This document shows positions 9,126 through 63,484 of a DNA stretch of 64,000 bases, one piece after another (the first letter of the stretch is position 1; every line of letters begins with the position of its first letter). The translations under genes were made by a program, and so were the position numbers. Source of the DNA: Bactericera cockerelli (Eukaryota > Arthropoda > Insecta > Hemiptera > Triozidae); NCBI GenBank assembly GCA_024516035.1, contig CM044961.1:18171374-18235373 (forward strand). Reading direction: 5' to 3'. Below the pieces are notes generated by a model. It was not told the origin of the DNA and searched no databases. It was given only the letters and a program-made list of their open reading frames with translations.

Positions 9126-9126
9126 C

Positions 9127-23885: not shown

Positions 23886-26800
23886 GTAAGTAAACTACTT
23901 GTTGATTTCTACTTCATGAGCCAGGACACTTGTTATCAGGGGAAGAAATCTAAAAAGTTAAGAGAAATGTGGACAGACTTAATTGTTTATATAATTTTTT
24001 TGTCTATCATAGACCATGGTCTACCAATGAGTCACAAATGATTCCATGAACTTAGTACAACCACAGGTCACATTGTAAAAACTAGAAACAGACCTCCACA
24101 TGAGATTTAGTGGTCTCGAAATTCTTCAGCATATCAATAATTAGAGTATTGCTTTTGTGTGTATTCCACTAAACTTGGTGTTACAAATTTATTGATAAAG
24201 TTTAACCACATTTTGAATATGAAGCTAACACCATGAGAGATAATGTATAGCACTTAAATACAACATATGTCTCATTAAAGTTCAACCATCAGTGGATGTA
24301 TTATTATAACAAAAGAAACTTTTACAACAACAGCAAATAAAAGAAGTAGAGATGAAAAGCAAAAAATACAAACACAATACTTCCGATTTCTAATATTAGA
24401 AATTTCTAATAAGTAATACAATAGATCTTACTCAGAATGAAACAAAATAATCCCTACAAACCATAATAATAAATTTTCATTTCCCTTTTGTACCTATATT
24501 GTGTTATGTTTTTACATACCTAAATACCTATTATGTTTTTTATGAGCTGTTTAACATATGATTTGCTTCAGTCGGTAATCTTCTTCTCTGTACTGGAAAG
24601 TTTCATTTCCCTCTGCAGCTGGCATCCCTGTATCCCTGTTAGAATATTAAAAAATCCTTTCTCATTGCACTCTTTATAACATAAAAACCCCTTAAAAGTA
24701 CAACAGATATATTGTACTTCAAGGGGATTTTAAATGAAAAATACATATCATTTACCCACCAAAAATTTACCGGTAGAGGGTAACAATTATGAACAGGTGA
24801 TTGATTTTTTTCCCCATGGTTAACATCACACTTGTTATATTTAGAAAAAGAAAAGTATTTCTTATTATAGGTACCTTAGAGGCATTAAAAGAAACTACAT
24901 TTTAGCTTTATAGAATGTACCAATACAGAGAGGAGTGAGTGACTGTTGCTTTCACAAGTATCAGATTTAGGGCTGAAGGAGTTTCATTTGAATACCAACC
25001 TCAGTAGCTTGATTAATAAGGTGGTTGACTCATAAACTAGAAGTCAGTAATTTGATTTTGAGAGTTTGGCTAAAACTTAGTGAGGCCAGTTTGAGAGATA
25101 AACACAAATATGATAGTGTAAATGAATGAAAATATTGTTGTATAAGAAGGTTTATGTCATCATCCTAACAAGTCCTGATGAGTAATGGTCATGACTCATT
25201 GAAGTACAACTTGAGGTCAAAATACATGTTCTCTTACTTGTACCTTTAAATCAATGTTTTTAGAGGTTATTAAACACTTCAAAGTCATGATCTTCCTTGT
25301 ATATATTCCTTTTATATATTCTTTTTAATTATTTTCAGACTGGACTGATATACATTTTCAACCTAGTGATAGGCACAGGAGCACTCACACTACCCCATGC
25401 AATACAAGAGACAGGATGGATACTGGGAACAGTTATACTCACTCTCATTTGTTTATTCAGGTAGGTATCTATACTACCACATTAAATAAGTCCAAGCTCA
25501 ATATAACAGCATTGCTAGTGCCAAAATGTTTAGTCTCTTGCCAGACATTTCCCTTGCCCACAGAACTAGTTGGTTAGTGAGACAAACCATCTTGCAGATA
25601 TAAAGCCTATAAAAGTATTTAATACAGTATCTTAAATATACCAGTTTTTGATGTGTCACTTGAGTTGAGCAACATCCAGAAAGGTAAGGACTTGGATAGG
25701 TGATTAATTCAATTTAAATTATCATGATGTTGGCTAGTCCTGTCACCACTCAAGTTGGGTAAGTATAATTTGTGTAGTTGGTTTGTGAGTTTTTAGATAT
25801 GACCATGCAATTGAAAACAACTTTTAACCCAAAGATAAGTCTTAATTTTCAAGTAACTTCCAACTACCTTAGTCAGTTAGAGGTCTATTATTTCTATTTA
25901 TAGTCAAGCAGCCAGATGACATGCTAATGGACCCACTAAAAAAAATATTTGTACTTCTTGATTTTCAGTTTTATCACTGTCACATTTGTGTTCGAGTCAA
26001 TGGCCACCACAAATGCTATTCGCCAGTGGCGTAAAATAGGAGAGCTCAGACGAATCAGCTCCTATTTGAGGCAGAGTATCAATAGTTCTGTGGACCGTCT
26101 CACAGACACTTCTGTGAGTACAAGTGTGGATGAGCTCACTAACACTGAGAATGTCCCTCTCAATGGAACAGCAGAAATCAGAAGAAGTGCAGGTAAGCCT
26201 TAATTTTACAATTTCTTCATGTTGATTTTTACATTTTAAAAATCGCTACCATCGTTCACGATGACGCCACCCTATGCTGATGATTTATTATATCATTGTA
26301 TGTAAAAGGGAACATTCTTAAAGACTTGACTACTTTACAATAAAAACATACACATTACAAACAAGTACCTTCAATATTTAGTGTACAAATACCTGAATAT
26401 AAGAGAAGACTGTTCGTCTGAAACTCGATATAAAGAAGCTGGATTTAGTAAAAACTTGACATAAGTGTAGGTAAGCCTTAATTTTACAATTTCTTCATGT
26501 TGATTTTTATATTTTATGTTTTTTCATGTAAATCTCCTCATTATTATTATTATTTATTATAGTCTGGCTGGGGGACTATAAACAGGGAGTAGGCCAGCAT
26601 TGGCTTGTTTCTGGAGGCCCTTGTCGATTATTAGCCTCCTTGTAAAGACAGTGGTAGAAGTGCTGAGTCATTCCTCCACTGTCTGGCTACCATCGTTCAC
26701 GATGACGCCACCCTATGCTGATGATTTATTATATCATTGTATGTAAAAGGGAACATTCTTAAAGACTTGACTACTTTACAATAAAAACATACACATTACA

Positions 26801-31419: not shown

Positions 31420-31450
<31 letters not shown>

Positions 31451-34400
31451 TGTATGGTGTGTGTGTGTGGTGTGTGTGTGGTGTGTGTGTGTGGTGTGTG
31501 TGTGGTGTGTGTGTGTGGTGTGTGTGTGTGGTGTGTGTGTGGTGTGGTTGTGTGTGTGTGTGGTGGTGTGGGGTGTGTGCGTGTGTGGTGGGTGTGTGTG
31601 GGGTGTGTAAATGTGTGTGTGTGGGTGGGTGTGTGTGTGCGTTGTGTGTGTCTGATGGGCTGGCGAAGCGGCGGGTGTAACCCGCTAGTATCAAATAAAA
31701 ATACTGAACTATTCAAGACGCGTAACTACCTATATCCAATTGAACAAATTCATAATTATAATTGTGGAGGAGCGGTCACCCGTCCAAGTACCGTCTATGT
31801 GCGATGTCGGTAGCTTACCTCAGTTAAAGTGCTTTCCTTATCCTATAATGAGGAAAGTATTGTATTCGGCGAAATTTCAAAAAATATGAGAATATAATTT
31901 GTGTATTTCTTTTTTTAACATTCCTAACACATTCTTGGTAAGAGCTACCGTTAGCGAACTTTTATAAAATTTACGAGAAAAGAATTGGTGATTTCGTAGA
32001 ACCTACCAAAAACTCATTTAATATATTTAGAAAAAATGTTTGGTTGGGTGGCGGTGGGCTTGCAAAAAAATAATAATAGAAGTCTGATTGAGGTCTTATA
32101 TAATAAACATATAATGTCTCCTTAAAAAAAGTAGACTGGAAAAACTGGAAAAATGGTCTGGAAAACCTGGAAAAGTCAGGGAATTTTACTTTGACCATTT
32201 AGTAGACACCCTGATTATGCAACACTTCTCCTCCGTTTTCCCAGCCTTCTTCATAATGATCGTGCTGGCGACGATGCGTCTGTTCCGCTCGGATCTCTGA
32301 ACATTATACATTCATGTACGATTAATGCATTATGCAACACTTTTCCTCCGTTTTCCCAGCCTTCTTCATAATGATCGTGCTGGCGACGCTGCGTCTGTTC
32401 CGCTCTGATCTCCCGCACGGCGCCCCCTCCCCGGTGCTGTGGGGGGGACTCACCACTCTGTTCGGGTGCGGGGTCTACTCCTTCATGTGCCACCACTCGC
32501 TGCCCTCCGTGGTCACCCCCATGAGGAACAAGTCTCAGCTGATGCAGCTCACGGGCTTCGATCTCATGGTACCGAATAATAATTGTTCTCTTAATTTTTT
32601 AACCCTGTAAAGCCCGTTGTTACATATATGCAGGGTGGACACAAAGTCTCACCCCACTCGGCGAGGCGGCCAGTAACTAACACTATCAGATAAGGTTGAG
32701 TTTGTTTGAAAGGTGTAGTTGAGAGGATTTCTCATGAAAAAAAAATCATTTTTTTTTTTTTTTTTTTTTTTTTTACACTTTATTAGGTAATAGGACATAT
32801 ACAATACAAATAATTACAAATGAAAATACAATATACAATATAACAGAAGAAAAAAATAAAGAAAAAATAAATAAATATATACATAATATATGTCCTAACT
32901 AAAGGGCGGGGTTATTGCCTTAGGCAATCTCTTCCACCCAACCCTTATCTCTCTACCAATTCTTTTCTAGAGATACAGCATAGAACACAGTCATACTGCG
33001 AGTGGGGTCAGACTTTGTGATCACCCTGTATATATATAACAAGATATTTCAAAGATTCATGCTCGCTTTCATTTTGTTTTTTTCTTCGTTTAAAACCTAC
33101 CCTAACCTATCATCGCACATGTTCTCAGCTGTTTACAAAAGCAAACATTGTATGGTTCTACTTGTGGTTTCATAGAAGTTTCATCACTTTAGAGAAAAGC
33201 GTTTCGAGGGAACTGCATGCCTACTGAGAGGGTAAACTTCTTTTCAGTTATTTTCAGTTTTTTTTTTATATAGGAGATCAAATAAAGTAATTTTTATTTG
33301 TGTAGTAAAGCTTCCATCTATTGTATCATACAATTTGTATGTACATTCTACATTTCTACTTAGAAAGGTCCAAAATTTCAATTACACATATGTACATGGT
33401 ATTAGAGATTTTTTTACATTTTTGAACTAAATAACCAATATTTAGAAGAAAAAATTTTCTTGTCTTTTTCACTTCTTGGGCATTACAGGCTTCTAATAAT
33501 TAGTACAAACCAGCTGTCGTCCACCAATTCTCGTATCACTTATCAATCACTCAATGTTGTATGAAGTTATGTGGGTAGCAGACCTCCCTCATTCTGAACT
33601 CTACAAATCCAAACTTCCCCTTTCAATCCTTCTACAAACCATCTAACTACTCGTCAAATACACAATACGAGTTCGTTGTTGCCTAAGAAATCTAACTTGG
33701 GAGAGGGTGCTTTCGTAAGATCGAGTTGTATTTCCTGCGATCGATCAGAAGTGCCCTCTCTAACTATTTAAGAACATCAGTCAGTCGTCTGCTAACATGG
33801 TTAGAAATGAGAATGACTAGATTCACCCTGACTCATTCAGGAGGCTTTATAATTTGAAAGGCAGATTTTACTAAATAGTTCCTTAATGACTGGTTAATAT
33901 CTGTTTATGAGTCCCCTTGCTCAAACTGATGATCACAGTACGACATGTTATAAGTGCCGAGAGAACACGTGCTGGATACTACATTTTTATATTGTAGCCA
34001 ACATGTGACTCTATTCTCTTTATGGATAATTTTAAGTTATTTTGTACAAAGATAGCCTCATATTAATCGTTTTACATGATGCATTACATTATATGTTTTT
34101 TAATTTAATTGTCAATGGCTACATACTACTTACAATAAAAAGACCAGTTATCAACATTGTTACGTTCCTGTTATAAATAGTTCGTTCGTCGCCACAGCGT
34201 TAGTCTACTCCTGCTGTTCTAAGTCTGCCTCCCTATCATGAGGATGTCTACTTCCTTTGTGACAGCAAGATCCCAGCACAGACTGAAACGTAGATTTCTC
34301 TATATCCTCTCACTCTGAATAGCTTCCCACAGCAGACTCTGAGAACAACATCCTTAGTAAGTCTACCTCCAGAAAACTGCATCTGAAACTCCCTTTACAT

Positions 34401-36705: not shown

Positions 36706-37405
36706 TTTCCATCCAGGGAGACATGGCCAAAGTAACGCTGGACTGTTGAATGATTCCATCCAGGAGACGCCTCAGTGACGCCTGGACTGTTGAAGTGATT
36801 TCCATCCAGGGAGACAGGCCAAGTACGCCTGGACTGTTGAAGTGATTTCCATCCAGGGAGACATGGCCAAAGTAACGCCTGGACTGTTGAAGTGATTTCC
36901 ATCCAGGGAGACATGCCAAAGTAACGCCTGGACTGTTGAAGTGATTTCCATCCAGGGAGACATGGCCAAAGTAACGCCTGGACTGTTGAAGTGATTTCCA
37001 TCCAGGGAGACATGCCAAGTACGCCTGGACTGTTGAAGTGATTTCCATCCAGGGAGACTGGCCAAAGTAACGCCTGGACTGTTGAAGTGATTTCCACCCA
37101 GGGAGACATGGCCAAAGTAACGCCTGGACTGTTGAAGTGATTTCCTCCAGGAGACCCCAGTACGCCTGGACTGTTGAAGTGATTTCCATCCAGGAGACAT
37201 GGCCAAAGTAACGCCTGGACTGTTGAAGTGATTTCCGTCCAGGGAGACATGGCCAAAAGTAACGCCTGGACCTGTTGAAGTGATTTCCATCCAGGGAGAC
37301 CCCCTCAGGTGACGCCTGGACTGTTGAAGTGATTTCCATCCAGGGAGACATGGCCAAAGTAACGCCTGGACTGCTGAGGTGATTTCCGTCCAGGGAGACA
37401 TGGCC
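36664..37405 (+). repeat. 50-bp minisatellite seeded from the TMEM104 stop region
   Basis: About 15 units containing gcctggactgttgaagtgat and ttccatccagggagacatgg. The first unit overlaps the end of the TMEM104 reading frame. The coding-end phrase cctcaggtgacgcctgg recurs intact at 37303 and, with one base lost, at 36771. Scattered single-base losses between units suggest either drift or low consensus quality. Long antisense open frames here are array artefacts. Confidence 0.93.
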
Positions 37406-37425
37406 ACAAAAAGTCTCGTTTAAAA

Positions 37426-37586: not shown

Positions 37587-37590
37587 TTAA

Positions 37591-39840: not shown

Positions 39841-39854
39841 AATAATAATAATTC

Positions 39855-40078: not shown

Positions 40079-40097
40079 TTACAGTTCTAATAATATT

Positions 40098-41950: not shown

Positions 41951-41956
41951 ATAAAA

Positions 41957-44814: not shown

Positions 44815-45052
44815 CTATACGGTAGTGCCGTAGGTGCTAAACACTACTCTAGTTGAGTCCTTGTCTAGAGTAACGTCTTCAGGTGTAAAGTATACTATTC
44901 GGTAGTGCCGTAGGTGCTAAACACTACTCTAGTTGAGTCCGTGTCTAGAGTTACGTCTTCAGGTGTAAAGTATACTATACGGTAGTGCCGTAGGTGCTAA
45001 ACACTACTCTAGTTGAATCCGTGTCTAGAGTTACGTCTTCAGGTGAAGCCAG
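44815..45052 (-). repeat. 80-bp tandem triplication of the terminal coding exon
   Basis: ggtagtgccgtaggtgctaa starts at 44821, 44901 and 44981, exactly 80 bp apart. The rightmost unit is the 3' end of the last coding exon of the minus-strand gene (codons for VTLDTDSTRVVFSTYGTTV and the stop). The two left units are near-identical non-coding copies beyond the stop codon. Confidence 0.93.
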
Positions 45053-51100: not shown

Positions 51101-54100
51101 GGCTAGAGGGCAGAAGATCAGAGCTATGAGCAGGGCTAGCACTGGCTGCACCTCCAGTATACTAACTCACCTGAGCAGCACAGGACACAGGCTAGAGGGC
51201 AGAAGACCAGAGCTATGAGCAGGGCTAGCACTGGCTGCACCTCCAGTATACTAACTCACCTGAGCAGCAGAGGACACAGGCTAGAGGGCAGAAGATCAGA
51301 GCTATGAGCAGGGCTAGCACTGGCTGCACCTCCAGTATACTAACTCACCTGAGCAGCAGAGGACACAGGCTAGAGGGCAGAAGACCAGAGCTATGAGCAG
51401 GGCTAGCACTGGCTGCACCTCCAGTATACTAACTCACCTGAGCAGCAGAGGACACAGGCTAGAGGGCAGAAGATCAGAGCTATGAGCAGGGCTAGCACTG
51501 GCTGCACCTCCAGTATACTAACTCACCTGAGCAGCAGAGGACACAGGCTAGAGGGCAGAAGACCAGAGCTATGAGCAGGGCTAGCACTGGCTGCACCTCC
51601 AGTATACTAACTCACCTGAGCAGCAGAGGACACAGGCTAGAGGGCAGAAGACCAGAGCTATGAGCAGGGCTAGCACTGGCTGCACCAGACCCTGCAGCAG
51701 GATGTTGACCACCAAGGCCTCCAGTATGACGCAGTAGCGGTTGCGGTGGGCGGGGTCAGGGCAGTCGAAATCGTACACGAGAGCCATGACGATGTGCGTG
51801 CCTAGAGTCACGAAAGGCACCCTGAAGAATAAAGGAAAACATTGACCAGTAATAATATCAGTATAGCATAGCCCATTACATCATTTATTTACAAGACATT
51901 TACTTACAAGAAGACTTTTACTTACAAGACATTTACTTACAAGAAGACTTTACTTACAAGACATTTACTTACAAGAAGACTTTACTTACAAGACATTTAC
52001 TTACAAGACTTTACTTACAAGAAGACTAAAAGACATAAAATGAAAAAACTAGAAAGCCGGGATCCCACAGATTGCAACTTTTTGTTTCAAAACGTTTCGT
52101 AGCATTTTCTCGCCACGAATTAGCACGGAAAGTGTTCAAAGCATTGAGAAGCACAGTCATTTGATTCCAAAGGCTGAGCGGAGCATTGAACGGTGAAACG
52201 CTTCGCAACATTGTGAGTCAAATTGTTGCATTCAGTGGGATCCCAGCTTTAGGAAGCTTTATTTATACTTTAGATAGAAACTTATGGGGAGTAAGAATAA
52301 GTTTAAGAAAAGACATAAAAACATCACTTACTTCTCTGTAAGATATTTTTTTTTTTTTAAATGTGACTTCAGAAAAATAGCAATAAGATTAAGTAGCTCT
52401 TCATTATTGATTGTTAAATCTGTTTAATTCTTCATTCAGAATGTCAGGGCGAGGATGCCCCATTTTGAAAACAGTTGCAGCAAACTGTTTCCTAAGTGTT
52501 TAACTGGATAACACTTGAGAGGTTTCCAGATTTATAGCACACACTAAGGCTAGGAGAACACTCACCATATGACGGCAGTTAAGGCTAGGAGAACACTCAC
52601 CATATGACGGCAGTTAAGGATAGGAGAACACTCACCATATGACGGCAGTTAAAGCTAGGAGAACACTCACCATATGACGGCAGTTAAGGCTAGGAGAACA
52701 CTCACCATATGACGGCAGTTAAGGCTAGGAGAACACTCACCATATGACGGCAGTTAAGGCTAGGAGAACACTCACCATATGACGGCAGTTAAGGCGAGGA
52801 GAACACTCACCATATGACGGCAGTTAAGGCGAGGAGAAGGCACACGAGGGTGGTAAGGACGCAGGCTACAGGAAACAGGATGGTCAGCACGAGAGTGCCC
52901 AGGACTCCTTTGATCAGGTAGTTCCACACTCTGTTCACATGACGCGTCAGTCCCTTCCCGATGAATCCTGAAATATAAAACAATTAGAGTGAATAAATTT
53001 CAAATAGCTCTACAAAGAAAAGTGCAATGCTGGAACTTGGCCTGGCGCACTGCCAAGCGCTCAGATCAACAATAATTTTATCTTCTTCTTTCACTTTGCC
53101 TTTTCCCAAACCTACTTGGGGTCAGCATTGTCCAACCTCATGTTTGAGGTTGGTTGGTTGTGGCATATTTTTTACGGCTGGATGCCCTTCACAACACCAA
53201 CTATTCTATTTGATTTAACGTCCTGATTAGGACGGGGTTTTTAACAATAATTTTATGTTATCAATAAATTCTCAATAATTCCTTTCGAACTACGAGTAAT
53301 TTTGAACAAATAGAACATAAAATGACACTATCAACACAAAAGTAGATCAAGATTGTTTCAATTTTCATCAAGCAAGGAACCATGTAATGCTTTGGAAGGC
53401 TCCAAAATGAATACATAATATGTACACAAATCATGAACATACAAAAAATATCCTTCAGGTAAATGTTAAAAGTTAAAGTTATCATATTTGTGTTAAACAC
53501 TTTCGTGATATCACAACTACTGAAACTCGCTTTACTAAATCCACGCTGAAACCGGGACTCGAACCACCGACCTCCAGGTTAGAAGTCCGCGGCCTTATCG
53601 ATCAAGCTACTGAGGTCGGTTCCTTCAGGTAAATGTAATATTATGACAAAATTATACTTTATAAGATATTTCACTTTTCGTTTTAATGATTTCTCTTGCT
53701 GTTCTCCACGAATGAGTGTCTTGATCTATTTACATTACATTATGATAGGGAACTTTAAGGGTTGGGTGGAAGAGATTGCCAAAGGCAATAACCCCGCCCT
53801 TTAGTTAGGACATATGTATATATTTATTTATTTTTTCCTCTTTTTACTTCTTCTTATATTTTATGTTAATTTGTAATTATCTGTGTTGTATTTCTATTAT
53901 GTCCTTATTAATAAAGTGTATATATTTTATAAGATGTTTCGTGGTGTGTATGACCATAGATGTTAGATGTTGACATGCACCACTATAATCTAATAAAAAA
54001 TAGATAGATAGATAGATAAGATGTTTCACTTTTCGTTTTAATCATTTTTCTTGCTGTTCTCCACAAATGAGTGTCTTGATCTATTTACATGATTTAAACG

Positions 54101-57100
54101 AAAAGTGAAACATCTTATCATCGTTAAACAGGAACTTTTTGTTCTTGTATCTTTGCTTACTCTTATTGTTTTTCTTTATAATTTCATTCTATTTCACTAT
54201 ATGTATGTATATATTTTTGTTCTACCTAATAAAGCTTACTATAATAATAATATGAAATCAACGCAAATGATACTAACCCGTGTCCGGCTTGGTTTCGAAG
54301 TAGGTCCGGGACTTGGAGATGTGCCGACACAGGTGCAGCAGCCGAGAGCAGAGGGTGGGGGTGAGGGAGAACTTGCGAGGAAACAATGTGCCGTTCACTT
54401 GCGACAGCTCGAAGTGGGAGTAGAAGGGCTCGATGCAAACGAGAGCGCGGATTCCGAGCGGACTGCACCAGGGAATGAAAATCTGAGGAAGCACATGAGT
54501 TATTTATTTTATTTATTTATTTATAAAGAACCGTTGGTACCCAAATTAATGGGCTAGGGCCTCCTTTAAAAGGGTATATTGCATGATTAATCCGACCTCA
54601 GTAGCTTGATCGATAAGGCGGCGGACTTGTAACCTGGAGGTCGGTGGTTCAAGTCCCGGTTTCAGCGTAGATTTAGTAAAGCGAGTTTGAGTAGTTGTGA
54701 TATCACGAAAGTTATTAACACAAATATGATAACTTTAAAAAAAAACTTTTATTGCATGATTATGTTGATGATCTGTTACAAGAATGTACAAAAAATGTCC
54801 TGGTCAATGTCAGTCTTTATTTTGTATTTAATAAGTAGGTCATTTCTTGTTTTTTTTTTTTATACATTCACATGAGTTATGTGGAATAGTTAATAAGTTT
54901 TCATATTTGTGTTAATCACTTTCGTGATATCACAACTACTCGAACTCGCTTTACTAAATCTACGCTGAAACCGGGACTTGAACAACTCCACGTTACGAGT
55001 CCGCCGCGTTATCGATCAAGCTACTGAGATGGGTGGAATAGTTAATAAAAATTAAATAAAAATCTGTCTGGCTGGGGGACGTTAAACAGGAAGACTATAA
55101 ACAGAAGAGCGGAGTAGACAATCCTAAGTTAGGCTAGCTTGAAATTTCCCAAGGGTTTAATGGTCTATAAAGAAAAAGTCCAAGTTCTTACGATGGTTGA
55201 TCGCACATAGAAATATGTGGTTCAGGACAAGACAACATTAAACTAAAGTTGGCTGGAGACCATCACTGCCCCCAGCTGTAGCCAAGCTGTTTACAAACAA
55301 CTGTAACCAAATTTTGAATACAATTTTTTTGTCTGGCTGGGGGACTATAGTCTGGCTGGGGAACTATAAACAGGGAGTAGACCAGCATTGGTTTGATTCT
55401 ATGGGCCCTTGTCAATTATTAGCCTCCTTGTAAAGACAGTGTCAGAAGTGCTGAGTCATTCCTCCACTGTCTGGCTACCATCGTGCACGATGACGCCACC
55501 CTATGATGATATGATGAAGAATTTTTTGTCAGCTCAGAAGTTTGAACCCGGGTCCTTCCGCATGGCAAGCGAGTATTTTAACATTGATCTACACATGAAT
55601 GAACCACTTAACATTGATGTACACATGACTGAACCACTTACCCCGAAGAAGAAAGCTTCTAAGAAATTGATGTACACATGACTGAACCACTTACCCCGAA
55701 GAAGAAAGCTTCTAAGAAATTGATGTACACATGACTGAACCACTTACCCCGAAGAAGAAAGCTTCTAAGAAATTGATGTACACATGACTGAACCACTCAC
55801 CCCGAAGAAGAACATGGTGTTCCAGGTCCAGGCCCAGGTGCGGTGTGTGTAGTTGATCCAGCGCCAGAGAGGCCAGCGAGTGCTGGAGCTGCGGGTTACT
55901 TCCTTCTCCACCAGGAACACGGGCTGGGGAGGAAAATTGTATTTCAAAATGAAGATTCATTGAAATAACTAATAATAATTATCACTAGAAAATCTATCTA
56001 GAAATCAGTTATTATTATTATTATACAACGCTTTATCAGGTATAAATGGACATTATGTACACATACAAATAATTAATTTTACAATGAAAAAATGGAAACA
56101 ATATAGGTATACAATAAAAATGAAAAAGAATAGAAAATATATAAAAAAAAGCATAAGTTCTAACTAAAGGGCGGGGTTATTGCGTATGGCAATCTCTTCC
56201 ACCCAACCCTTCTATTCACACTAAGAGATTAGAATCGCTTGTTTTGTGAGTAAATATTGTCTTGGTTTGAGGAGGAGTACCTACCTGGTTGGGTTTGAGG
56301 AGGAGTGCCTACCTGGTTGGGTTTGAGGAGGAGTGCCTACCTGGTTGGGTTTGAGGAGGAGTACCTACCTGGTTGGGTTTGAGGAGGAGTACCTACCTGG
56401 TTGAGGAGTACCTACCTGGTTGGGTTTGAGGAGGAGTGCCTACCTGGTTGAGGAGTACCTACCTGGTTGGGTTGGAGGAGGAGTACCTACCTGGTTGGGT
56501 TGGAGGAGGAGTACCTACCTGGTTGGGTTGGAGGAGGAGTGCCTACCTGGTTGGGTTTGAGGAGGAGTACCTACCTGGTTGGGTTTGAGGAGGAGTACCT
56601 ACCTGGTTGGGTTTGAGGAGGAGTGCCTACCTGGTTGGGTTTGAGGAGGAGTACCTACCTGGTTGGGTTTGAGGAGGAGTACCTACCTGGTTGGGTTTGA
56701 GAGAGAGTGCCTACCTGGTTGGGTTTGAGGAGGAGTACCTACCTGGTTGGGTTTGAGGAGGAGTACCTACCTGGTTGGGCAGCCCTGCTGTAAGGTATGG
56801 AAAGTATTGAGGAGGAGTGCCTACCTGGTTGGGTTTGAGGAGGAGTACCTACCTGGTTGAGGAGTACCTACCTGGTTGGGTTGGAGGAGGAGTACCTACC
56901 TGGTTGGGTTGGAGGAGGAGTACCTACCTGGTTGGGTTGGAGGAGGAGTGCCTACCTGGTTGGGTTTGAGGAGGAGTACCTACCTGGTTGGGTTGGAGGA
57001 GGAGTACCTACCTGGTTGGGTTTGAGGAGGAGTACCTACCTGGTTGGGTTTGAGGAGGAGTACCTACCTGGTTGAGGAGTACCTACCTGGTTGGGTTGGA

Positions 57101-60100
57101 GGAGGAGTACCTACCTGGTTGGGTTGGAGGAGGAGTACCTACCTGGTTGGGTTGGAGGAGGAGTACCTACCTGGTTGGGTTTGAGGAGGAGTACCTACCT
57201 GGTTGGGTTTGAGGAGGAGTACCTACCTGGTTGAGGAGTACCTACCTGGTTGGGTTGGAGGAGGAGTACCTACCTGGTTGGGTTGGAGGAGGAGTACCTA
57301 CCTGGTTGGGTTTGAGGAGGAGTACCTACCTGGTTGGGTTTGAGGAGGAGTACCTACCTGGTTGGGTTTGAGGAGGAGTACCTACCTGGTTGGGTTGGAG
57401 GAGGAGTACCTACCTGGTTGGGTTGGAGGAGGAGTACCTACCTGGTTGGGTTTGAGGAGGAGTACCTACCTGGTTGGGTTTGAGGAGGAGTACCTACCTG
57501 GTTGGGTTTGAGGAGGAGTACCTACCTGGTTGAGGAGTACCTACCTGGTTGAGGAGTACCTACCTGGTTGGGGTCGGAGCGTGGGGTGGTGATGGAGGTG
57601 GCGGTGGAGGAGAACACGGTGGGGATGTTCTCGCTCTGGCCCTGGAAGTTGCGCTTCACCACCCAGTGCTGGGGGAACCAGATCTGCGTGGGCCACTGGA
57701 AGGTGCGCGTGGGCGTCTTCACCTTGCGCAGCTCCTTCAGTAGGACGGGCTCTCTCTGGAAACCGGGGGTACCAGAGCAGAGTGGTCAGTCACACGTGTA
57801 GTGAAAAACATAATAAATATTGCTGAGTCGATTTCTTTTCTAAAAAAGATTTACTCTGCCCTTCGGTGTGTTTCTGGTAATTCTCGCTCGCATCAGTTCC
57901 TGATACAAAAAATATCACAGGCCATCCAAAGGGGCAATAGCTCGAGCATCAGAGGCACGCTTCCTCTCGGTAGTGAGCTGGAAGAAATATTTTACCTTTG
58001 AAAGAATATGAAATAAATATTTAAAAACATAGTAAAGAAGTAAACATTCTCAATTACAATTCAATTTAAATTTCTGATTTTCTTCAAAACATAAAATAAA
58101 ATAAAATTCTGAATGATTTTCCCCTAATATGTAAAAACAACACTCATCTTAGAAGCCAAATAAAAATAAATATGAAAAATAAAACAAATGATTTATTATT
58201 ATTATTATATCTTAAGAAAGAAAATAAAACTTCAAAATTATTACAGCCGGACCAATACAGAGGTCGTAAATACAGAGGTCGTTAGAATAATGTAAAAACC
58301 AATAATTAAAAAAAAAATTAAATACCCGGTGTACGGGAGCATATTTACGGGAATAGCCCTATTTACAATGTCAACAATAAAAATGTCAATAATTGCAAAG
58401 ATTAAAATAAAATAATGTTAAAAAGTAAGATCACAAGTAGTAAAAAGTAATTAATACACAAATATGAAAAACAGTACAACACAAATACAATTATTTTAGC
58501 GAATGATTTTTTTCCCTAGGTTTTTTTTTAACGTCAACTTCAACTGTATGGTCATATCCCTTCATTCGCTCGAAACTTGCAAACCAGATACTCAAATTAA
58601 CCTCACTCAGCCTGAGTTGGCCCGACAATAGCATTATGAGGGTTCAGATTTGAATGGTCACCCATTCAAGTCCTAGCCTCGCTGGACTTTGCTTCACTTC
58701 AGTGACTCAATGAGAACTGGTGCATTCAACGTGCCATCGACGCTGGCTGAAATTTGATTGAATAGTTCTTGGGTGATAGTAAAAATATCGGTAGATTAAA
58801 TGGCTGAGGCAATTATTTCACCGCAGATTACAAAACAATTGTGAAAATAAATTAATTTTTTTATATGTTTTTTCCCATATATTTTCAAGTTTCTTTTTAT
58901 ATTTTTTCACCTCTTGATGATTGTTTTGTACAAAAAAAACTATAAATGTTGAAATTTTATTTTATTTATTTATTACATGACAAGTAAATGGTTCAAATAT
59001 ATATATCAATGACAGTTTACAAAATTCATAATATTTTTAACTGAACTTATGCTATTTTTTTGGCTGTCGTCATCCTACACCAAGGGCCACACCTTTGAAT
59101 ATGGTCCTTGTGTCGTGGGATGATGAATATTATATGTAATTTCTTTACTGAATATTGAATAATAAATAACTAACAAAATGCCTACAGGAGTAGGCTTAAC
59201 AGGTCGACTCTGTGAACTTTTACACTTGTTTCCTTAATAATTATAAACTGTTCAATACTGTTCATAATTCAAATTTCTGTCGAGTGAAGACAAGTGTTTA
59301 TCTTTTCTCTACTAACTTCTCTATTGTTCTCACCTCTCTCATGAACGCCAGATCCCGCTGCAGGAAGTACAGTGCCTGGGGCAAGCTGTGTGCAGTACAC
59401 AGTGCTATGGCCTCCTGGTGACCGCTCCACTTGTTCTCCAGGATGAACCGAGCTTCCGTACTGCGCAGCTCTCCGCGCAGCCAGGCAGAGATGCGCGCTA
59501 GTATCGGGTGGGAGTATCGGATGCGCGCGCAGAGGAGATCCTTGGTGCGCGCTAGTTTACAGCGCACGTTGTCGATGGCGCGATGCATGAGGACCGTGGC
59601 CTGCGCCTGGTCGATGAGGAGTTGAGGGATGCCTGAGGGGCGAATAGGGATAGTAGTACATTAAGTTTTAAGTGGCCTGGGCTTGGTCGATGAGGAGTTG
59701 AGGGATGCCTGAGGGGCGAATAGGGATAGTAGTACATTAAGTTTTAAGTGGCCTGGGCTTGGTCGATGAGGAGTTGAGGGATGCCTGAGGGGCGAATAGG
59801 GATAGTAGTACATTAAGTTTTAAGTGGCCTGGGCTTGGTCGATGAGGAGTTGAGGGATGCCTGAGGGGCGAATAGGGATAGTAGTACATTAAGTTTTAAG
59901 TGGCCTGGGCTTGGTCGATGAGGAGTTGAGGGATGCCTGAGGGGCGAATAGGGATAGTAGTACATTAAGTTTTAAGTGGCCTGGGCTTGGTCGATGAGGA
60001 GTTGAGGGATGCCTGAGGGGCGAATAGGGATAGTAGTACATTAAGTTTTAAGTGGCCTGGGCTTGGTCGATGAGGAGTTGAGGGATGCCTGAGGGGCGAA

Positions 60101-63100
60101 TAGGGATAGTAGTACATTAAGTTTTAAGTGGCCTGGGCTTGGTCGATGAGGAGTTGAGGGATGCCTGAGGGGCGAATAGGGATAGTAGTACATTAAGTTT
60201 TAAGTGGCCTGGACTTGGTCGATGAGGAGTTGAGGGATGCCTGAGGGGCGAATAGGGATAGTAGTACATTAAGTTTTAAGTGGCCTGGGCTTGGTCGATG
60301 AGGAGTTGAGGGATGCCTGAGGGGCGAATAGGGATAGTAGTTTTTTTTTTAAAAAAAAGGAAGGGCGGGGAAAAACACCCAGACATTTTAAAGACACCCA
60401 GGTCTTAGCCTGGGGTGTGGGATTTCCACCCACTAAAAACCCACCTTTCCTGAGGGATAGTAGTACATTAACACTTTGAGCCGCCCCAGAGCTGGGATCG
60501 GCGAGTGAGCACGAAGGACCAAGGCAAAAAATGCGTTTTGCACCCTTTGTACCAAAGTTTTTTTTTGGTAAATTTACGTCTTTCAGCTGCACCTTTTATA
60601 CTTTATGACTAGCGGGCTGTCGCCCGCTTTGCGGGCCGAGGCATGGCCGTGAAAGCAAAAAATCCTTTTTCGCTAATGGCAGGTGTTGTAGTGGGAATTT
60701 CGAAAAATCCCGTCTTAGTGCACATCTAGACTATAAGACAAAGCTACCTACCAAATTTCAGCTTCCTAGGACTTACCAGTTCGGAGAAACAGTGATGAAT
60801 CAGTGAGTGAGTCAGTCAGTCAGTCAGTGAGTGAAACTCTCTTTTATAAGTATAGATTTAACTTCAATGTAAGGAAGGTCGTGAATACCATATATAGAGT
60901 ACTCATGTCCACAGTCAAAATTCGCGTGAGGGTCATATACGAGGTCTGTCCGAAAAGTTCGTATAAAAGTGAGATAAAATTTTTATTTTACAATTAATCG
61001 GGTAATTCAATTTTGAGTCCTTCAAAATACTCTCCCTGGGACACAATGCACTTCTGCCATCGCCGTTTCCACTGTTTGAAGGCTCCTTGAAAGCCCTCAG
61101 TTTGAAGGCTTCTCAGCTGACTCGTCGTTGCTGCTTTAATGGCCTCAACGTCCCCCGAATACCGCCCTCGAAGCACCAATTTTGTTTTTGGGAATAAAAA
61201 GAAGTTACAAGGTGCCAAATCCGGTGAATAAGGGGGGTGTTCAGTCGCTATGATCGAATTGGCAGCCAGAAACTCACGCACAACGAGACAGGTGTGAGCG
61301 GGGGCATTGTCGTGGTGGAGGATCCACCGCCCCTCTCGCGCCAAATCCAGCCGAACTCAAAGAAAGCTCTTCAGCCACCTGTCTGACGATTAAACGAAGG
61401 TCCTGCAGGACACAAAATCGAATTCTTTCCACATTGTCAGAAGTGCTGGAAGTGGAAGGACGTCCTGACCGAGGGTCATCTTCGAGACTTTCTCGGCCCT
61501 CACAAAATCATTTTAACCACTTGTGGACTGTTGGTTCCTTGAAGGCATCATCTCCATAAACTCGGTTGAGATCAATAAAAATTTCGCGGCCATTCTTGCC
61601 GAGTTTCGAGAGAAATTTGATGATGTTCTTGAATGACTGAGAGCTCCATGCCGACGAGTGGTAGAGAGAGGGGTCACTTCACAGGTACCGGGTCGAACCA
61701 GTTCTTTTCGTACGGTGGTCGGGCGCACACTGAGCATTGTTTGGGTGTTATAGAAGGGGATGCAGCCCACCTGGCCTCCCCACTTAGCCTTCCAGCCTTC
61801 CCAGAACACTTTTATACGAACTTTCCGGACAGACCTCGTATGGTACTCATGTCCTTTATGAAATGTCAGCTGAGAGTCATATATGGTATTCATGGGCTCA
61901 AAGTGTTAAGTTTTCAGTTTTATTGTACAGTTCTCTTATATCCAGGTTCGACTGTATCAACTATGCCTACCTTCGCCCAGCGCCTGCAACTCCTGGCTGT
62001 TGAGTATGCTGGCGTACACCCGGCCTAGGTACTCCTTCATCACAGCTTGGTTGTCTATCTCCTCATCTGGTACCTTGAGTACAGCACTATTAAGTCCACT
62101 TCTTCTCCTTCTTGTTCTTCTCCTTTATTTTCTATACTTTTCATTGTACCTTTAAATTTTTCTTTTCTCTTTTTTTTTCTCTCTTTTTTTTGTTTTTCCT
62201 TCTACTTTTTTAGAAGTATTTATTATTATATATATATTTTTTTCTCATTATTTTTTATATCCTATGGGGTTCGGTGGAAGAGAAAGCTTCGCCCCTTGGT
62301 TCACTACATATTCTATTTTTTTTTTTTTTTTAGCATTTGTTGAATGTATGTAGTTGACCAATAAAGAGTTAAATAATAATAATAATAATATAGTACCTTG
62401 AGACTTTGCCTACCTTCGCCCAGCGCCTGCAACTCCTGGCTGTTGAGTATGCTGGCGTACACCCGGCCTAGGTACTCCTTCATCTGGTACCTTGAGTACA
62501 GCACTAGTATAGTACCTTGAGACTATGCCTACCTTCTCCATAACCAAGAACTCCTTGTCCAGAGACTGACACTTCTCATGAAGGGAACAGGTTTCTGGAC
62601 TTAGGGTGTTCAGCTTTGGACAACCACTCCCAACTAAGCCCAGTTGGGCCGTCATAGGCACAGCACTGGGAAATAGGATGAGAGATTTTCTCCCTGGTTA
62701 CAATAGATCTCACTAGGTCGCAGTGTTAATTGCATGGTTTTTAGCTGAAACCCTGTAACCAGGTTTTATAATAATAATAAAATGCCTACCTTCTCCCAGC
62801 GCCTGCAACTCCTGGCTGTTGAGTATGCTGGCGTACACCCGGCCCAGGTACTCCTTCATCACGGCTTGGTTCTCTATCTCTTCATCTGGTACCTTGAGTA
62901 CAGCACTAGTATAGTACCTTGAGACTATGCCTACCTTCTCCCAACAGCACTATTATAGTACCTTGAGACTATGCCTACTGTACGGTAGCTTTGGAGGGCA
63001 CAGGACTGTAAGGGATGCCCACGGGAAAGCGTAATTTTCCTTTGATAGCGTTCGAGTTCACAGCACAGAGAGAGAGAGAGAAAGAATCGACTACCCACTT

Positions 63101-63484
63101 ACTTGGTTTGGAGAATACTGCCTCGAGCTCGAAGGCCTCACATGTTGAGAGATTGTTGGTGCAGTTTCGGGCGATGAACGTGGATCTCCAAGCTACCTAC
63201 CGGGTGTCCCTACTCTACGCAACACCTACCTTCGCCCAGCGCCTGCAACTCCTGGCTGCTGAGTATGCTGGCGTACACCCGACCTAGGTACTCCTTCATC
63301 ACGGCTTGGTTGACCGCCTTCTCGATCTCCTCGTCCGGCATCTTCTCCCCCTTCAGCTGGTTGATGAGCTTCTCGCGGAAGTGCAGGAACCACCCCCGCG
63401 TCTCCTTCTCCAGGATCAGGACCAGGGGGGGTAGGGCCCGCCTCATCAGGTCCCGGTTGAACAGGCGGAGGTCGAGCTTCTGAC
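44975..63484 (-). CDS. Unnamed multi-pass membrane protein, 3' portion of a large gene
   Basis: Exons on the minus strand: 63484-63230, (candidate 63192-63103), 59632-59334, 57755-57564, 55923-55801, 54482-54278, 52967-52811, 51821-51616, 49819-49728 (cut by the N gap), 47446-47249, 46486-46364, 45906-45782, 45111-44975. Every junction I could test is phase-consistent with GT/AG sites. The visible product starts with a charged helical region, continues through Trp/Arg-rich loops (TRWPLWRWINYTHRTWAWTW), then a block of hydrophobic helices in exons G-H, a conserved-looking RYWLRLVWDSLMFYGLIQKR stretch, and a Gly-rich then acidic Ser-rich tail ending in YGTTV. The pattern suggests a conserved animal membrane protein, but I do not recognise the family and give no function. 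The 5' end is outside the window and sequence is missing at the gap. Confidence 0.85.
45290..45456 (+). pseudogene. 3' end of a non-LTR retrotransposon reverse transcriptase ORF
   Basis: The frame from 45307 reads VTRWQDNNIEMDISRMGMDP then GTWKERAQDRNQWRQAVKQA and stops at 45454-45456. The RW-DD-I--D--W--LA-DR--WR pattern is the familiar C-terminal end of many LINE polyproteins. Only about 50 residues remain, inside intron L-M. Confidence 0.65.
45562..45752 (+). mobile_element. S2-family SINE, 5'-truncated
   Basis: Body only: ggataccttccggtgcgctc, cacagaccacaaatg and a terminal A-run. It matches the S2 SINEs at 27815 and 29536 but lacks the tRNA-like head. Confidence 0.72.
45782..45906 (-). 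CDS. Membrane protein exon L
   Basis: Reads (R)AIEDSSTEYQGEMSKYLEEN followed by SMDSVESQSSIASSSTFNWR. It is hydrophilic, acidic and Ser-rich, consistent with a disordered cytosolic tail. Acceptor attacag-type, donor CAAG|gtaact (weak at +5). Phase-consistent on both sides. Confidence 0.82.
46364..46486 (-). CDS. Membrane protein exon K
   Basis: Reads (S)GEKLLIPLPLPHPTRIAVTI then HNRDSEDVIDLDSDLTQLVL. The short proline-rich and acidic segments look evolutionarily constrained. Donor CTCAG|gtaaga; the acceptor follows a T-rich tract. Both phases fit. Confidence 0.85.
46789..46911. mobile_element. Harbinger-type (Tourist-like) MITE, diverged copy
   Basis: TAA flanks on both sides; the ends gggcaaaattaatagac and gtctattaattccgccc are inverted repeats. 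The interior follows the same consensus as the copies at 22954, 23096, 49937 and 50249 but with more substitutions, so it is an older insertion. Confidence 0.8.
46925..47200. repeat. Interspersed repeat ending in the gtctggctggggga motif (reverse)
   Basis: Contains gttggctcgtccagaaccac, a run with catatttccatgtgcgatca and a terminal tttaacgtcccccagccaga. An inverted copy lies at about 55065-55300. It sits immediately downstream of exon J. Confidence 0.6.
47202..47270 (-). repeat. 21-bp tandem repeat of the exon J donor
   Basis: ctcacctgtagggaatgttt-type units begin at 47202, 47223 and 47244. On the minus strand each is cattccctacag|gtgag, so three consecutive 5' splice sites are offered. Only the first in transcript order (exon end 47249) keeps the frame open: retaining a unit puts TGA directly after the Arg codon. 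Confidence 0.9.
47249..47446 (-). CDS. Membrane protein exon J (Gly-rich segment)
   Basis: Reads WNTKSHNVRGGGVPSGGAGG, a long Gly/Ser stretch, basic REEKRGG, then WRRPWKRANIPY. This frame was chosen over two other open frames because it alone joins exon K in phase (AG|T giving Ser). Acceptor ctccccag. The first base completes a codon begun in unseen sequence. Confidence 0.75.
47594..49191 (+). mobile_element. Apparently complete Tc1-family transposon
   Basis: Element of 1598 bp flanked by TA on both sides. Terminal inverted repeats of 31 bp begin cagttaggtgcaaaagtgat and differ at one position. It carries an uninterrupted transposase frame. It lies in the intron between exons I and J and is inserted in a retroposon 3' tail whose two halves continue on either side. 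Confidence 0.93.
47787..48953 (+). CDS. Tc1-family DD34E transposase
   Basis: Open frame of 388 codons. The native start is more likely the Met at residue 50 (47934), giving 339 residues, the usual Tc1 length. After that Met come a helix-turn-helix (LSNREIAKKLNLSYATVQRI), a GRPRKLT-type linker resembling the GRPR minor-groove motif, and a second helix-turn-helix (VSKWTIARALK). The catalytic triad is visible: Asp in VIWSDESK, Asp in VVFQHDN, and Glu in VNRIENLW, the last two separated by 34 residues. No frameshift or stop interrupts it. It would cut and paste DNA at TA sites in the nucleus. It is co-oriented against the host gene. Confidence 0.95.
   Translation: MDHFCNFRQNPKIYHEEVNFLNYFFRPVTLRPLSCTFFEKFSSITSLVAMKSKISIFSESVRYYLIQGLSNREIAKKLNLSYATVQRIRQLHKDVPQKPKEGRPRKLTAQDHKRLVRYVITGRTTTAPEAAEALRSDTGVSVSKWTIARALKRSHFNAIEKKKKPLLSKKNIERRKKFTKTYEDWSVEKWKNVIWSDESKINRYHTDGRQWAWKRSGETPQPRDFIQTVKHGGGNIKVWGCFSAHGVGPIRKIDGNMNKEMYLDILKTQVSETVDFMPCPNEEVVFQHDNDPKHTAKIVKSWLGEQKFSILEHPAQSPDVNRIENLWSYLKTQLVKDYDSPPSNLKILWERVQQTWYNIPIDYCEKLAMSMPKRIQAVKNARGLWTKY
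49291..49627. other. Unassigned sequence left of the scaffold gap
   Basis: A short frame reading ELLSLCLDLLPSVKEPQVRL then KDYIC runs into the gap. It looks like part of a mobile-element protein but cannot be named. Confidence 0.35.
49628..49727. other. Scaffold gap (100 N)
   Basis: Exactly 100 undetermined bases, the usual placeholder for a gap of unknown size. It truncates exon I of the minus-strand gene. Because exon J needs two bases from a preceding exon while exon I reaches the gap on a codon boundary, some coding sequence must be missing here. Confidence 0.98.
49728..49819 (-). CDS. Membrane protein exon I (cut by the gap)
   Basis: Reads (V)GLARYWLRLVWDSLMFYGLI then QKRGRVPACD, an amphipathic Trp/Arg-rich segment following the membrane block. 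Acceptor ctacttcag; G|TG joins exon H in phase. The 3' end is in the gap. Confidence 0.85.
49937..50065. mobile_element. Harbinger-type MITE in array unit (orientation 1)
   Basis: 129 bp, ends gggcggaattaatagac and gtctattaattccgccc. The left-hand subterminal sequence is gtttttgtaatacctctgtg. Flanks are ctaa on the left and ttag on the right, at the junction between two 90-bp units. The 3-bp TWA-like target fits PIF/Harbinger. Confidence 0.92.
50249..50377. mobile_element. Harbinger-type MITE in array unit (orientation 2)
   Basis: 129 bp with the same ends and the same ctaa/ttag flanks as the copy at 49937, but the interior is inverted: the left-hand subterminal sequence is aacatcaataacttaagtcg. 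Confidence 0.92.
50700..50868 (-). repeat. Retroposon 3' tail
   Basis: Minus-strand reading gives aaccccgccctttagttagg, then an AT-rich tail. It belongs to the same family as the copies at 32775 and 53748. Confidence 0.7.
51071..51690 (-). repeat. 89-bp tandem array of the exon H 3' end and donor
   Basis: Exon-H-like ends occur at 51082, 51171, 51260, 51349, 51438, 51527 and 51616, exactly 89 bp apart, each reading ctgctgctcag|gtgagttag on the minus strand. Each unit carries the code for QPVLALLIALVFCPLACVLC plus about 20 bp of intron. That gives seven near-perfect 5' splice sites in a row. Since 89 is not a multiple of 3, use of a downstream donor would shift the frame. Confidence 0.96.
51616..51821 (-). 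CDS. Membrane protein exon H (hydrophobic helices)
   Basis: Reads VPFVTLGTHIVMALVYDFDC, a loop PDPAHRNRYCVILEAL, then a long hydrophobic stretch LVQPVLALLIALVFCPLACV. Two or three membrane helices are likely. Acceptor ttcttcag; TG|G joins exon G as Trp. Donor TCAG|gtgagt, the first of seven tandem copies in transcript order. Confidence 0.9.
51880..52030. repeat. Short tandem repeat of acttacaagacattt type
   Basis: Alternating units containing acttacaagacattt and acttacaagaagacttt, about 16-20 bp each, near exon H's acceptor side in the intron. Confidence 0.8.
52547..52850 (-). repeat. 35-bp tandem array of the exon G donor
   Basis: ctcaccatatgacggcagtt occurs every 35 bp from 52561 to 52806, eight times. 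On the minus strand each unit reads ctgccgtcatatg|gtgagtg, the coding end of exon G plus its splice donor. Unit length is not divisible by 3. Confidence 0.95.
52811..52967 (-). CDS. Membrane protein exon G (helical block)
   Basis: Reads (G)FIGKGLTRHVNRVWNYLIKG followed by VLGTLVLTILFPVACVLTTL and VCLLLALTAVIW, one or two long membrane helices after an amphipathic basic segment. Acceptor atttcag, donor ATATG|gtgagt. Both phases fit. Confidence 0.9.
53075..53245. repeat. Dispersed repeat fragment (cctacttggggtcagc type)
   Basis: Contains aaacctacttggggtcagca and ggctggatgcccttcacaac, a combination I associate with widely dispersed animal retroposons, followed by a tttaacgtcctgattaggac end shared with the repeat at 39855. 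Confidence 0.5.
53479..53626 (-). mobile_element. tRNA-derived SINE (family S1)
   Basis: On the minus strand: head acctcagtagcttgatcgat, B-box ggttcgagtcccggttt, body gcgtggatttagtaaagcga and end gatatcacgaaagtg. Copies occur at 54591 (plus) and 54897 (minus). Confidence 0.8.
53748..53932 (+). repeat. Retroposon 3' tail, plus orientation
   Basis: Reads gggttgggtggaagagattg, aataaccccgccctttagtt, an AT-rich region and a terminal attaataaagtg. It is the most complete plus-strand representative of the family. Confidence 0.75.
54110..54254 (+). repeat. Retroposon 3' end with (aat)n tail
   Basis: A T-rich stretch ending ctaataaagcttactataat with an ataataataat tail, immediately adjacent to the exon F donor on its intron side. 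Confidence 0.5.
54278..54482 (-). CDS. Membrane protein exon F
   Basis: Reads IFIPWCSPLGIRALVCIEPF, then YSHFELSQVNGTLFPRKFSL and LCSRLLHLCRHISKSRTYFE. It has one N-glycosylation sequon (NGT) and several cysteines. Acceptor cctcag, donor ACGG|gttagt. Phases fit exons E and G. Confidence 0.88.
54591..54735 (+). mobile_element. tRNA-derived SINE (family S1)
   Basis: Head gacctcagtagcttgatcga, B-box ggttcaagtcccggttt, then gcgtagatttagtaaagcga and the end gatatcacgaaagt. This is the cleanest S1 copy. Confidence 0.82.
54897..55033 (-). mobile_element. tRNA-derived SINE (family S1), inverted
   Basis: Same family as 54591 in the opposite orientation, 160 bp away. The head region is slightly damaged (acttgaacaactccacg). 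Confidence 0.78.
55065..55510. repeat. Interspersed repeat cluster with gtctggctggggga ends
   Basis: Holds one inverse copy of the 46925 repeat (55065-55300) and one copy of the 26571 repeat (55331-55505), both bounded by gtctggctggggga followed by ctataaacag or cgttaaacag. Confidence 0.65.
55614..55825 (-). repeat. 53-bp tandem array of the exon E donor
   Basis: ttgatgtacacatgactgaa recurs at 55614, 55667, 55720 and 55773. On the minus strand the units read ttcttcttcggg|gtgagtggttc or ggg|gtaagtggttc, the coding end of exon E plus donor. The donor is gtgagt in the true exon and gtaagt in the downstream copies. Confidence 0.92.
55801..55923 (-). CDS. Membrane protein exon E
   Basis: Exactly 41 codons: PVFLVEKEVTRSSSTRWPLW then RWINYTHRTWAWTWNTMFFF G. 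It is Trp-rich and leads into a hydrophobic stretch. Acceptor ccccag, donor GGG|gtgagt, phase 0 at both ends. Confidence 0.88.
56013..56216 (-). repeat. Retroposon 3' tail with (aat)n end
   Basis: Minus-strand order: ggttgggtggaagagattgc, the aaccccgccctttagttaga block, tttctattctttttcatttt, then gataaagcgttgtataataa. It serves as the empty-site comparison for the Tc1 insertion at 47594. Confidence 0.78.
56270..57566 (-). repeat. 28-bp minisatellite of the exon D donor, about 45 copies
   Basis: Unit gaggaggagtacctacctgg plus ttgggttt (28 bp), with 19-bp short variants. On the minus strand each unit contains cccaaccag|gtaggtactcc, the last codons of exon D plus its 5' splice site. About 1.3 kb of intron is a head-to-tail series of splice donors. 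Confidence 0.97.
57564..57755 (-). CDS. Membrane protein exon D
   Basis: Exactly 64 codons: REPVLLKELRKVKTPTRTFQ, WPTQIWFPQHWVVKRNFQGQ and SENIPTVFSSTATSITTPRS DPNQ. Hydrophilic, with a Trp-rich amphipathic stretch. Acceptor tccag, donor CCAACCAG|gtaggt, phase 0 at both ends. Confidence 0.9.
57882..58001 (+). pseudogene. Fragment of a transposable-element protein, copy B
   Basis: The frame contains SRSHQFLIQKISQAIQRGNS then IRGTLPLGSELEEIFYL and a stop, followed by gaaataaatatt. It is related to copy A at 41957. Lies in intron C-D. Family not identified. Confidence 0.45.
58002..58520. other. Intron C-D, AT-rich part
   Basis: No supported feature; A/T-rich with scattered poly-A stretches. 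Confidence 0.5.
58521..58755 (-). mobile_element. 5S rRNA-derived SINE, best-preserved copy
   Basis: On the minus strand from 58755: gccagcgtcgatggcacgtt, gaatgcaccagttctcattg, agtcactgaagtgaagcaa, then ggacttgaatgggtgacc. Order and spacing follow the first 100 or so bases of animal 5S rRNA, including the internal promoter region. A non-5S body (ggctgagtgaggttaatttg) and a T-run-associated tail follow. It is a SINE3-like element, not a 5S gene. Confidence 0.85.
58756..59333. other. Intron C-D, remaining part
   Basis: AT-rich with no gene signal. The open frames near 59212 are shadows of exon C or chance. Confidence 0.5.
59334..59632 (-). CDS. Membrane protein exon C (helical, charged)
   Basis: Reads (G)IPQLLIDQAQATVLMHRAID, NVRCKLARTKDLLCARIRYS and so on to LPQALYFLQRDLAFMRE. 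Predominantly charged and Leu-rich, consistent with an alpha-helical cytosolic domain. Much higher GC than its introns. Acceptor cgcccctcag, the first functional copy of ten; donor GAGAG|gtgaga. Phase fits exons A and D. Confidence 0.92.
59631..60340 (-). repeat. 76-bp tandem array of the exon C acceptor, ten copies
   Basis: gcctgaggggcgaataggga occurs every 76 bp from 59631 to 60315. On the minus strand each unit is ttcgcccctcag|gcatccctcaactcc, i.e. polypyrimidine tract, 3' splice site and about 35 bp of exon. Only the last copy in transcript order leads into the rest of exon C. Confidence 0.96.
60608..60859 (-). mobile_element. Helentron-like non-autonomous element (inverted)
   Basis: On the minus strand it starts atctatacttataaaagaga and ends gcgggcgacagcccgc then tagtc. 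The interior includes a gact/tcac tandem stretch. Same architecture as 30753-31689. No coding capacity. Confidence 0.5.
60940..61838 (-). mobile_element. Internally deleted mariner element
   Basis: 899 bp bounded by TA. Inverted repeats of 32 bp begin cgaggtctgtccgaaaagtt and differ at one position. A typical mariner is about 1.3 kb. The transposase coding region has lost roughly 380 bp, joining the second helix-turn-helix region directly to the second catalytic Asp motif. Confidence 0.9.
60994..61344 (-). pseudogene. Mariner transposase C-terminal fragment
   Basis: The frame contains WILHHDNAPAHTCLVVREFL and YSPDLAPCNFFLFPKTKLVL, the second and third catalytic Asp motifs of a mariner DD34D enzyme, and ends at KIELPD. 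The first Asp and the central region are deleted. N-terminal remnants upstream (to about 61800) contain stop codons. It cannot encode an active enzyme. Confidence 0.93.
61957..62975 (-). repeat. Three partial tandem duplicates of exon A 3' end and donor
   Basis: Copies at about 61957-62095, 62395-62530 and 62782-62975 repeat the coding end of exon A (AVMKEYLGRVYASIL, then QELQALGEG) and its donor gaag|gtaggc, plus a shared ggtaccttgagtacagcact stretch. None has an acceptor. A retroposon 3' end (about 62100-62390) is inserted between the first two. Confidence 0.9.
62100..62392 (+). repeat. Retroposon 3' end with (aat)n tail
   Basis: T-rich sequence, then ggggttcggtggaagagaaa, gcttcgccccttggtt and a terminal ccaataaagagttaaataat tail. 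It resembles the other 3' tails here in layout but is a different subfamily. Confidence 0.6.
63103..63192 (-). CDS. Candidate exon B of the membrane protein gene
   Basis: 90 bp: two bases, 29 codons (WRSTFIARNCTNNLSTCEAF then ELEAVFSKP), one base, followed by a strong donor A|gtaagt. The phases exactly match exon A (ends one base in) and exon C (begins with two bases), so inclusion keeps the frame. The two cysteines and NCT sequon look constrained. Against it: the acceptor (ggtag) lacks a pyrimidine tract and the intron to exon A would be only 37 nt. A rearranged tandem duplication could explain that. Confidence 0.5.
63230..63484 (-). CDS. Membrane protein exon A (first visible exon)
   Basis: Reads QKLDLRLFNRDLMRRALPPL, VLILEKETRGWFLHFREKLI, an EKMPDEEIEKAV helix and MKEYLGRVYASILSSQELQA. 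Charged and helical, probably cytosolic. Acceptor cgcctcag, donor GAAG|gtaggt. Upstream exons must lie beyond the window, since the phase requires a preceding base and no start Met with upstream support is seen. Confidence 0.88.

Follow-up and report, generated by a model that had tools for sequence, protein, structure and literature searches.

Why should tandem repeats lie across the exon borders of two unrelated genes, and does this reflect one unusual locus or a property of the genome? The question is raised by a stretch of 64,000 nucleotides from the insect Bactericera cockerelli (contig CM044961.1), referred to here as the window, for which a preliminary description had counted about 22 exons and had placed many of their borders inside tandem duplications. 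We began with the identity of the genes and the position of their exons. The membrane gene on the minus strand is lips (Pfam PF25228, E 1.7e-205), whose exons align in tblastn with the Diaphorina citri proteins P0097, P0009 and P0099; a D. citri lips protein shows 90% identity across 65% of the lips query. The gene on the plus strand is TMEM104-like (Pfam PF01490), with the psyllid proteins P0101 and P0102 as its best relatives. Exons were placed by tblastn with proteins of D. citri, Cacopsylla and one further relative, after which the splice signals were read. In this way, homology located 20 exons within the window (12 of lips and 8 of TMEM104) and 5 additional lips exons to the right of it. 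For lips exon J the frame was read by eye alongside P0099, and its acceptor was left out of the counts. No tblastn match was obtained for residues 334-394 of P0102 or, exon J excepted, for residues 89-396 of P0099, and the second of these holes falls at a 100-N contig gap (window positions 49628-49727). The lips region additionally contains a 394-codon open frame (47769-48953) for a Tc1-like transposase (DDE_3, E 3.3e-14; HTH_Tnp_Tc3_2, E 1.8e-12) and, between exons A and C (60994-61640), broken pieces recognised by eye that we take to be mariner-like transposase.

Within lips, on the minus strand, tandem arrays span the donors of exon J (21-bp array, about 3 copies, 47199..47267; last exon base 47249), exon H (89 bp, about 7 copies, 51031..51686; last exon base 51616), exon G (35 bp, about 8 copies, 52545..52838; last exon base 52811), exon E (53 bp, about 4 copies, 55613..55812; last exon base 55801) and exon D, where a 28/19-bp array with 48 counted donor copies extends over 56264..57570 (last exon base 57564). 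The acceptor of exon C lies in a 76-bp array of 9.8 copies (59596..60341; first exon base 59632), and an array with an 80-bp unit and about 3 copies runs through the last codons and across the stop codon (44815..45045; stop 44975). The end and donor of exon A (63230-63484) recur three times in degenerate form, at 61966-62076, 62409-62483 and 62785-62895, and the whole feature occupies 61960..63485 on the minus strand. In TMEM104, on the plus strand, a 50-bp array of about 15 copies spans the last codons and the stop codon (36685..37406; stop ends at 36705), and the acceptor of exon 7 (first exon base 32360) has a second copy 115 bases upstream (32220..32420). The donor of exon 3 (last exon base 26192) had been described as duplicated: A second copy of the donor and early intron does exist (26181..26525), but it lies 278 bases downstream and is not adjacent. 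Among the arrays examined, the spacing of the units ranges from 19 to 126 bp. The possibility that one spreading repeat family produced the arrays was rejected, as it had been in the preliminary description, since the units of the junction arrays are by eye unrelated. Two further arrays (34552-35201, which is away from exon edges, and 55331-55368) resemble a dispersed element with 38-bp units and were left out of the counts; the body of this element, at 26540-26735, has at least 59 matches genome-wide, with 40 of 1274 candidates scored.

All edges were then judged by one uniform rule, according to which an edge is positive if the 20 bases spanning it, allowing up to 3 mismatches, are found again no more than 1500 bases away. 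In the window, 7 of 17 donors (lips A, D, E, G, H and J as well as TMEM104 exon 3), 2 of 19 acceptors (lips C and TMEM104 exon 7) and both stop codons were positive. A positive edge was thus found for 11 of the 20 exons placed by homology, which bears out the presence of arrays at exon borders in two unrelated genes, although the number of exons falls short of the roughly 22 reported before. The copies previously assigned to exon A are degenerate and scattered across 1.3 kb, and only one of them passes the strict rule. To the right of the window, one of five lips donors (79-bp unit, 2 copies) and none of five acceptors were positive, so that lips and TMEM104 together have 8/22 positive donors, 2/24 positive acceptors and 2/2 positive stop codons (donor versus acceptor, p 0.03). 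The same rule was applied to the interiors of introns, where sequence recurs at 22% of positions in lips and 20% in TMEM104, tails of junction arrays included, and to the interiors of exons (8.0% and 3.1%, respectively); in 13 stretches elsewhere (10 kb each, at round coordinates, C1-C3) the figure is 8.1%. Because the intron interiors of both genes recur at 20-22%, the window taken alone is not decisive: It was chosen for its look and constitutes weak, suggestive evidence.

A search with PF25228 located a second copy of lips, either a haplotype or a duplicate, about 217 kb away, with longer collinear pieces that are roughly 89-99% identical. Five of the six comparable arrays are present in this copy, mostly with different copy numbers. 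Exon D has 48 donors (spacing 28/19) in the window and 59 (mostly 22/19) in the second copy, the exon E array has 4 copies versus at least 12, the exon G array 8 versus at least 6, and exon x4, which lies outside the window, 2 versus 2; for exon A both show several partial copies, and further arrays are found in the second. The acceptor array of exon C, with its 9.8 copies in the window, corresponds to a single copy. This single-copy version carries two parts of the 76-bp unit in order with an insertion of about 250 bases between them, and the joint of the array has about 2 bases in common with the flank; to judge from these sequences, the exon C array is a plain local duplication that subsequently expanded. 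Because the second copy has most of the arrays at other copy numbers, the junction arrays look real and unstable. That they are artefacts of assembly, which the preliminary description had considered, is a reading to which we give hardly any credence. Contig gaps do lie in or near lips: The second copy starts directly after one of them (100 Ns), which interrupts its 35-bp array, and an inverted match (92%) to the sequence on the far side of this gap lies about 106 kb further on. Against an artefact, however, stand the second copy, in which the same edges carry arrays in five of six comparable cases, the individual differences borne by the unit copies and the recurrence of the same structure at unrelated loci.

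An excess of arrays beyond the window, whose absence would have refuted the preliminary description, was sought in two partial forms, by examining 20 exon ends of myosin genes and by counting donor patterns genome-wide, and neither of them refuted it. Of 77 myosin-head matches, 32 had no internal stop and an open frame below 260 aa; from these, 20 exon ends spread over loci were picked before their sequence was seen, and 440 bases around each 3' end were analyzed. By TRF and reading, 5 of the 20 donors have an array across them, with units of 30 bp (L055), 36 bp (L056), 32 bp (L060), 94 bp (L061) and 103-126 bp (L062), while at L063 an array is present only deeper inside the intron. The strict rule yields 4/19, as L057 has no clear donor and was dropped, and as the unit of L055 includes only about six exonic bases and hence scores negative. 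Random positions fall inside one seed unit in 2.1% of cases (53 arrays in 130 kb), compared with which 5/20 is an excess of about twelvefold (probability of 5 or more of 20, 5e-5), the 20 ends coming from related genes and being not fully independent. Relative to intron points of the same loci, the Fisher test gives p 0.002 with L055 taken as positive and p 0.09 with L055 taken as negative. A further sample was drawn by codon usage from the 13 stretches: It comprised 12 exons, of which three without a clear donor were dropped, and one of the remaining 9 donors was positive. This exon, L040, has 34-bp donor copies, two of them lying 2.1 kb further on, and contains YWTD motifs that we presume to be LDL-receptor-like. 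A third stop codon, in a codon-usage exon at L037:8797, has no array across it. In the same stretch, a 38-bp array (L037:8436-8699) stops just upstream of a likely acceptor and leaves it uncovered.

For the genome-wide form, each pattern was counted in the 565-Mb assembly and compared with the same pattern read backwards. As a single word, CAGGTAAGT occurs 8137 times versus 4347 times backwards, an excess of only 1.9-fold, whereas three CAGGTAAGT spaced by 12-42 bases occur 566 times versus 6. Three CAGGTGAGT occur 2303 times versus 36, and three AGGTRAG 19875 times versus 4261. The triple patterns of CAGGTAAGT and CAGGTGAGT therefore exceed their backwards control 64- to 94-fold, counts that are larger than the number of arrays because matches overlap inside one array. 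When the first 100 matches listed were grouped, they formed about 9 clusters for CAGGTAAGT, 5 for CAGGTGAGT and, for AGGTRAG, 7 within 4.6 Mb. By rough extrapolation from this grouping, the genome may hold several hundred arrays of donor motifs, and these would sit at exon ends, judging from the motif itself and from the minority of arrays that were read. For the acceptor, three TTTTTCAGG were found 38 times versus 46 times backwards (0.8-fold), a ratio that alone says little, TTTTTCAGG being a poor acceptor marker with a single count of 13547 versus 18648. For this reason we adopted the degenerate pattern CCTGRRAR, the reverse complement of an acceptor consensus, which carries the same information as AGGTRAG; it gave 1743 versus 908, that is, some excess of 1.9-fold on a count that has no single-word baseline. 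The earlier view that donors and acceptors are affected alike finds no support in these acceptor ratios, nor in the 2 of 19 acceptors in the window. The proposal of a recurrent process at exon borders, in turn, is backed by the donor patterns across the genome and by the myosin exon ends.

An explanation has to account for the arrays and their place, for the difference between the two assembled lips copies and for the genome-wide excess with the donor consensus. We consider it fairly probable that the arrays are minisatellites of the type named mirages in amphioxus, that is, local duplications at the exon end and intron start that are kept where later copies are silent. A short stretch spanning the exon end and the start of the intron would be duplicated in tandem and would later expand and contract as a variable array. 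In view of which donors and acceptors splicing generally selects first, a duplication across a donor would leave the first donor in place: The first transcribed donor would be used and the later copies would become silent intron, just as copies behind a stop codon would become silent 3' UTR. The duplication of an acceptor, by contrast, would offer an earlier, upstream AG that competes first, and such copies would mostly be purged. A filter of this kind fits the 8/22 donors versus 2/24 acceptors and the two stop-codon arrays. Silence alone, however, predicts that arrays are just as frequent in intron interiors. They are rarer there, and exon ends (or donors) would therefore also have to be hot for duplication beyond this filter. 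GC content may add to such a hot spot, but was rejected as its sole cause, the seed share at a unit GC of at least 55% being 6% (7 arrays, a small sample) and too low for 5/20. A purely splice-specific idea falls short because the arrays also span both stop codons.

Closest to this reading is the proposal that the 5' splice site itself provokes duplication through its sequence, through splicing factors or through RNA:DNA hybrids in transcription. We regard it as possible but rather unlikely, and the same holds for its consequence, namely a mutational process aimed at exon ends and coupled to splicing or transcription that duplicates the 5' splice site and has left several hundred donors with live arrays. 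The 64- to 94-fold excess of donor patterns, set against the 0.8- and 1.9-fold ratios of the acceptor patterns, would be expected under such a process, as would the roughly twelvefold elevation of myosin donors above the general seed share. Both window stop codons and two acceptors are nevertheless spanned by arrays as well, and survival of silent copies alone would predict the donor bias just as well. Should duplications instead arise evenly and become visible merely where they are harmless, the abundance of tandem arrays (7.2% of 130 kb with a period of 15 or more) and the raw intron recurrence in lips and TMEM104 would be readily understood. The inside of an intron tolerates arrays as well as a donor does; nevertheless, the myosin donors reach 5/20 versus 2.1% for random positions, and the triple CAGGTAAGT pattern differs so strongly from its control while single words differ 1.9-fold; we therefore think tolerance by itself improbable.

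Even less weight attaches to the idea that selection retains the extra donors as an aid to the splicing of these introns, which we judge very unlikely. The donor columns do vary less than the other columns of the units (46/1571 versus 264/4033 in the pooled arrays), and GT is kept in 48/48 and 59/59 of the counted exon D copies, but this column evidence is weak: Most of it comes from the exon D arrays, the copies depend on one another, and copies of this kind are picked up preferentially by the motif search. Most units, moreover, are not multiples of three, so that splicing from a later copy would change the reading frame, stop codons carry arrays too, and the copy number swings widely between the two lips copies.

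The preliminary description knew of nothing comparable, but minisatellites named mirages have been described in amphioxus, in Adh3, the globins BflGb6 and BflGb9, troponin C and PGBD5 (PMC3087553; PMC3902484). The accessible portions of these papers present them for single lancelet genes, note differences between haplotypes, contain no report of aberrant splicing and offer mirages as a source of introns (PMC3087553; PMC3902484). The likeness lies in a tandem unit that spans the exon-intron boundary, which is also what we found here, with the donor copy of TMEM104 and the copies of exon A being non-adjacent. As far as these portions go, mirages belong to cephalochordates and are spliced normally, whereas here the host is an insect, the excess extends over the whole genome, the donor bias is strong, stop codons are also affected and normal splicing is only presumed. 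The proteins of D. citri, which is another species, are continuous over most array junctions at the first donor. The intron-gain model of Rogers (PMC4974935) likewise invokes tandem duplication of a segment with AG and GT beside coding sequence. In that model, however, an exon acquires an intron it did not have, whereas the duplications described here affect borders of introns already present, and no gained intron was observed. A literature search in one open library turned up no description of arrays like these in insects. The arrays are thus real and known in kind, and it is their host, scale and donor bias that are new or unusual.

Judging from small samples (5/20, 1/9 and 1/5), the share of donors with arrays may lie between a tenth and a quarter. 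Each genome of this sort would provide many natural experiments on how the spliceosome selects its donor from several near-identical candidates, and the idea that exon ends are hot spots of mutation becomes testable in this genome; if donor-directed duplication were true, it would link RNA processing to local DNA duplication. Contig breaks and broken gene models may also accumulate at exon ends of this kind, as two hints suggest: The second lips copy is interrupted within an array, and the D. citri lips models P0097 and P0009 stop where the donors of exons A and G have their counterparts.

Tandem structure also occurs apart from the exon edges. A large C+T-rich satellite with 34-43-bp units occupies window positions 8622-16223, of which 9889-15412 comprises about 156 copies, away from exon edges. 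In a lips intron, away from any placed exon, units of 15/32 bp that are rich in GTAAGT on the minus strand lie at 51882-52022. Finally, apparently related tandem pairs of 186-187 bp at window positions 30935-31373, L030:5049-5417 and L040:4468-4841 represent a dispersed repeat with tandem structure.
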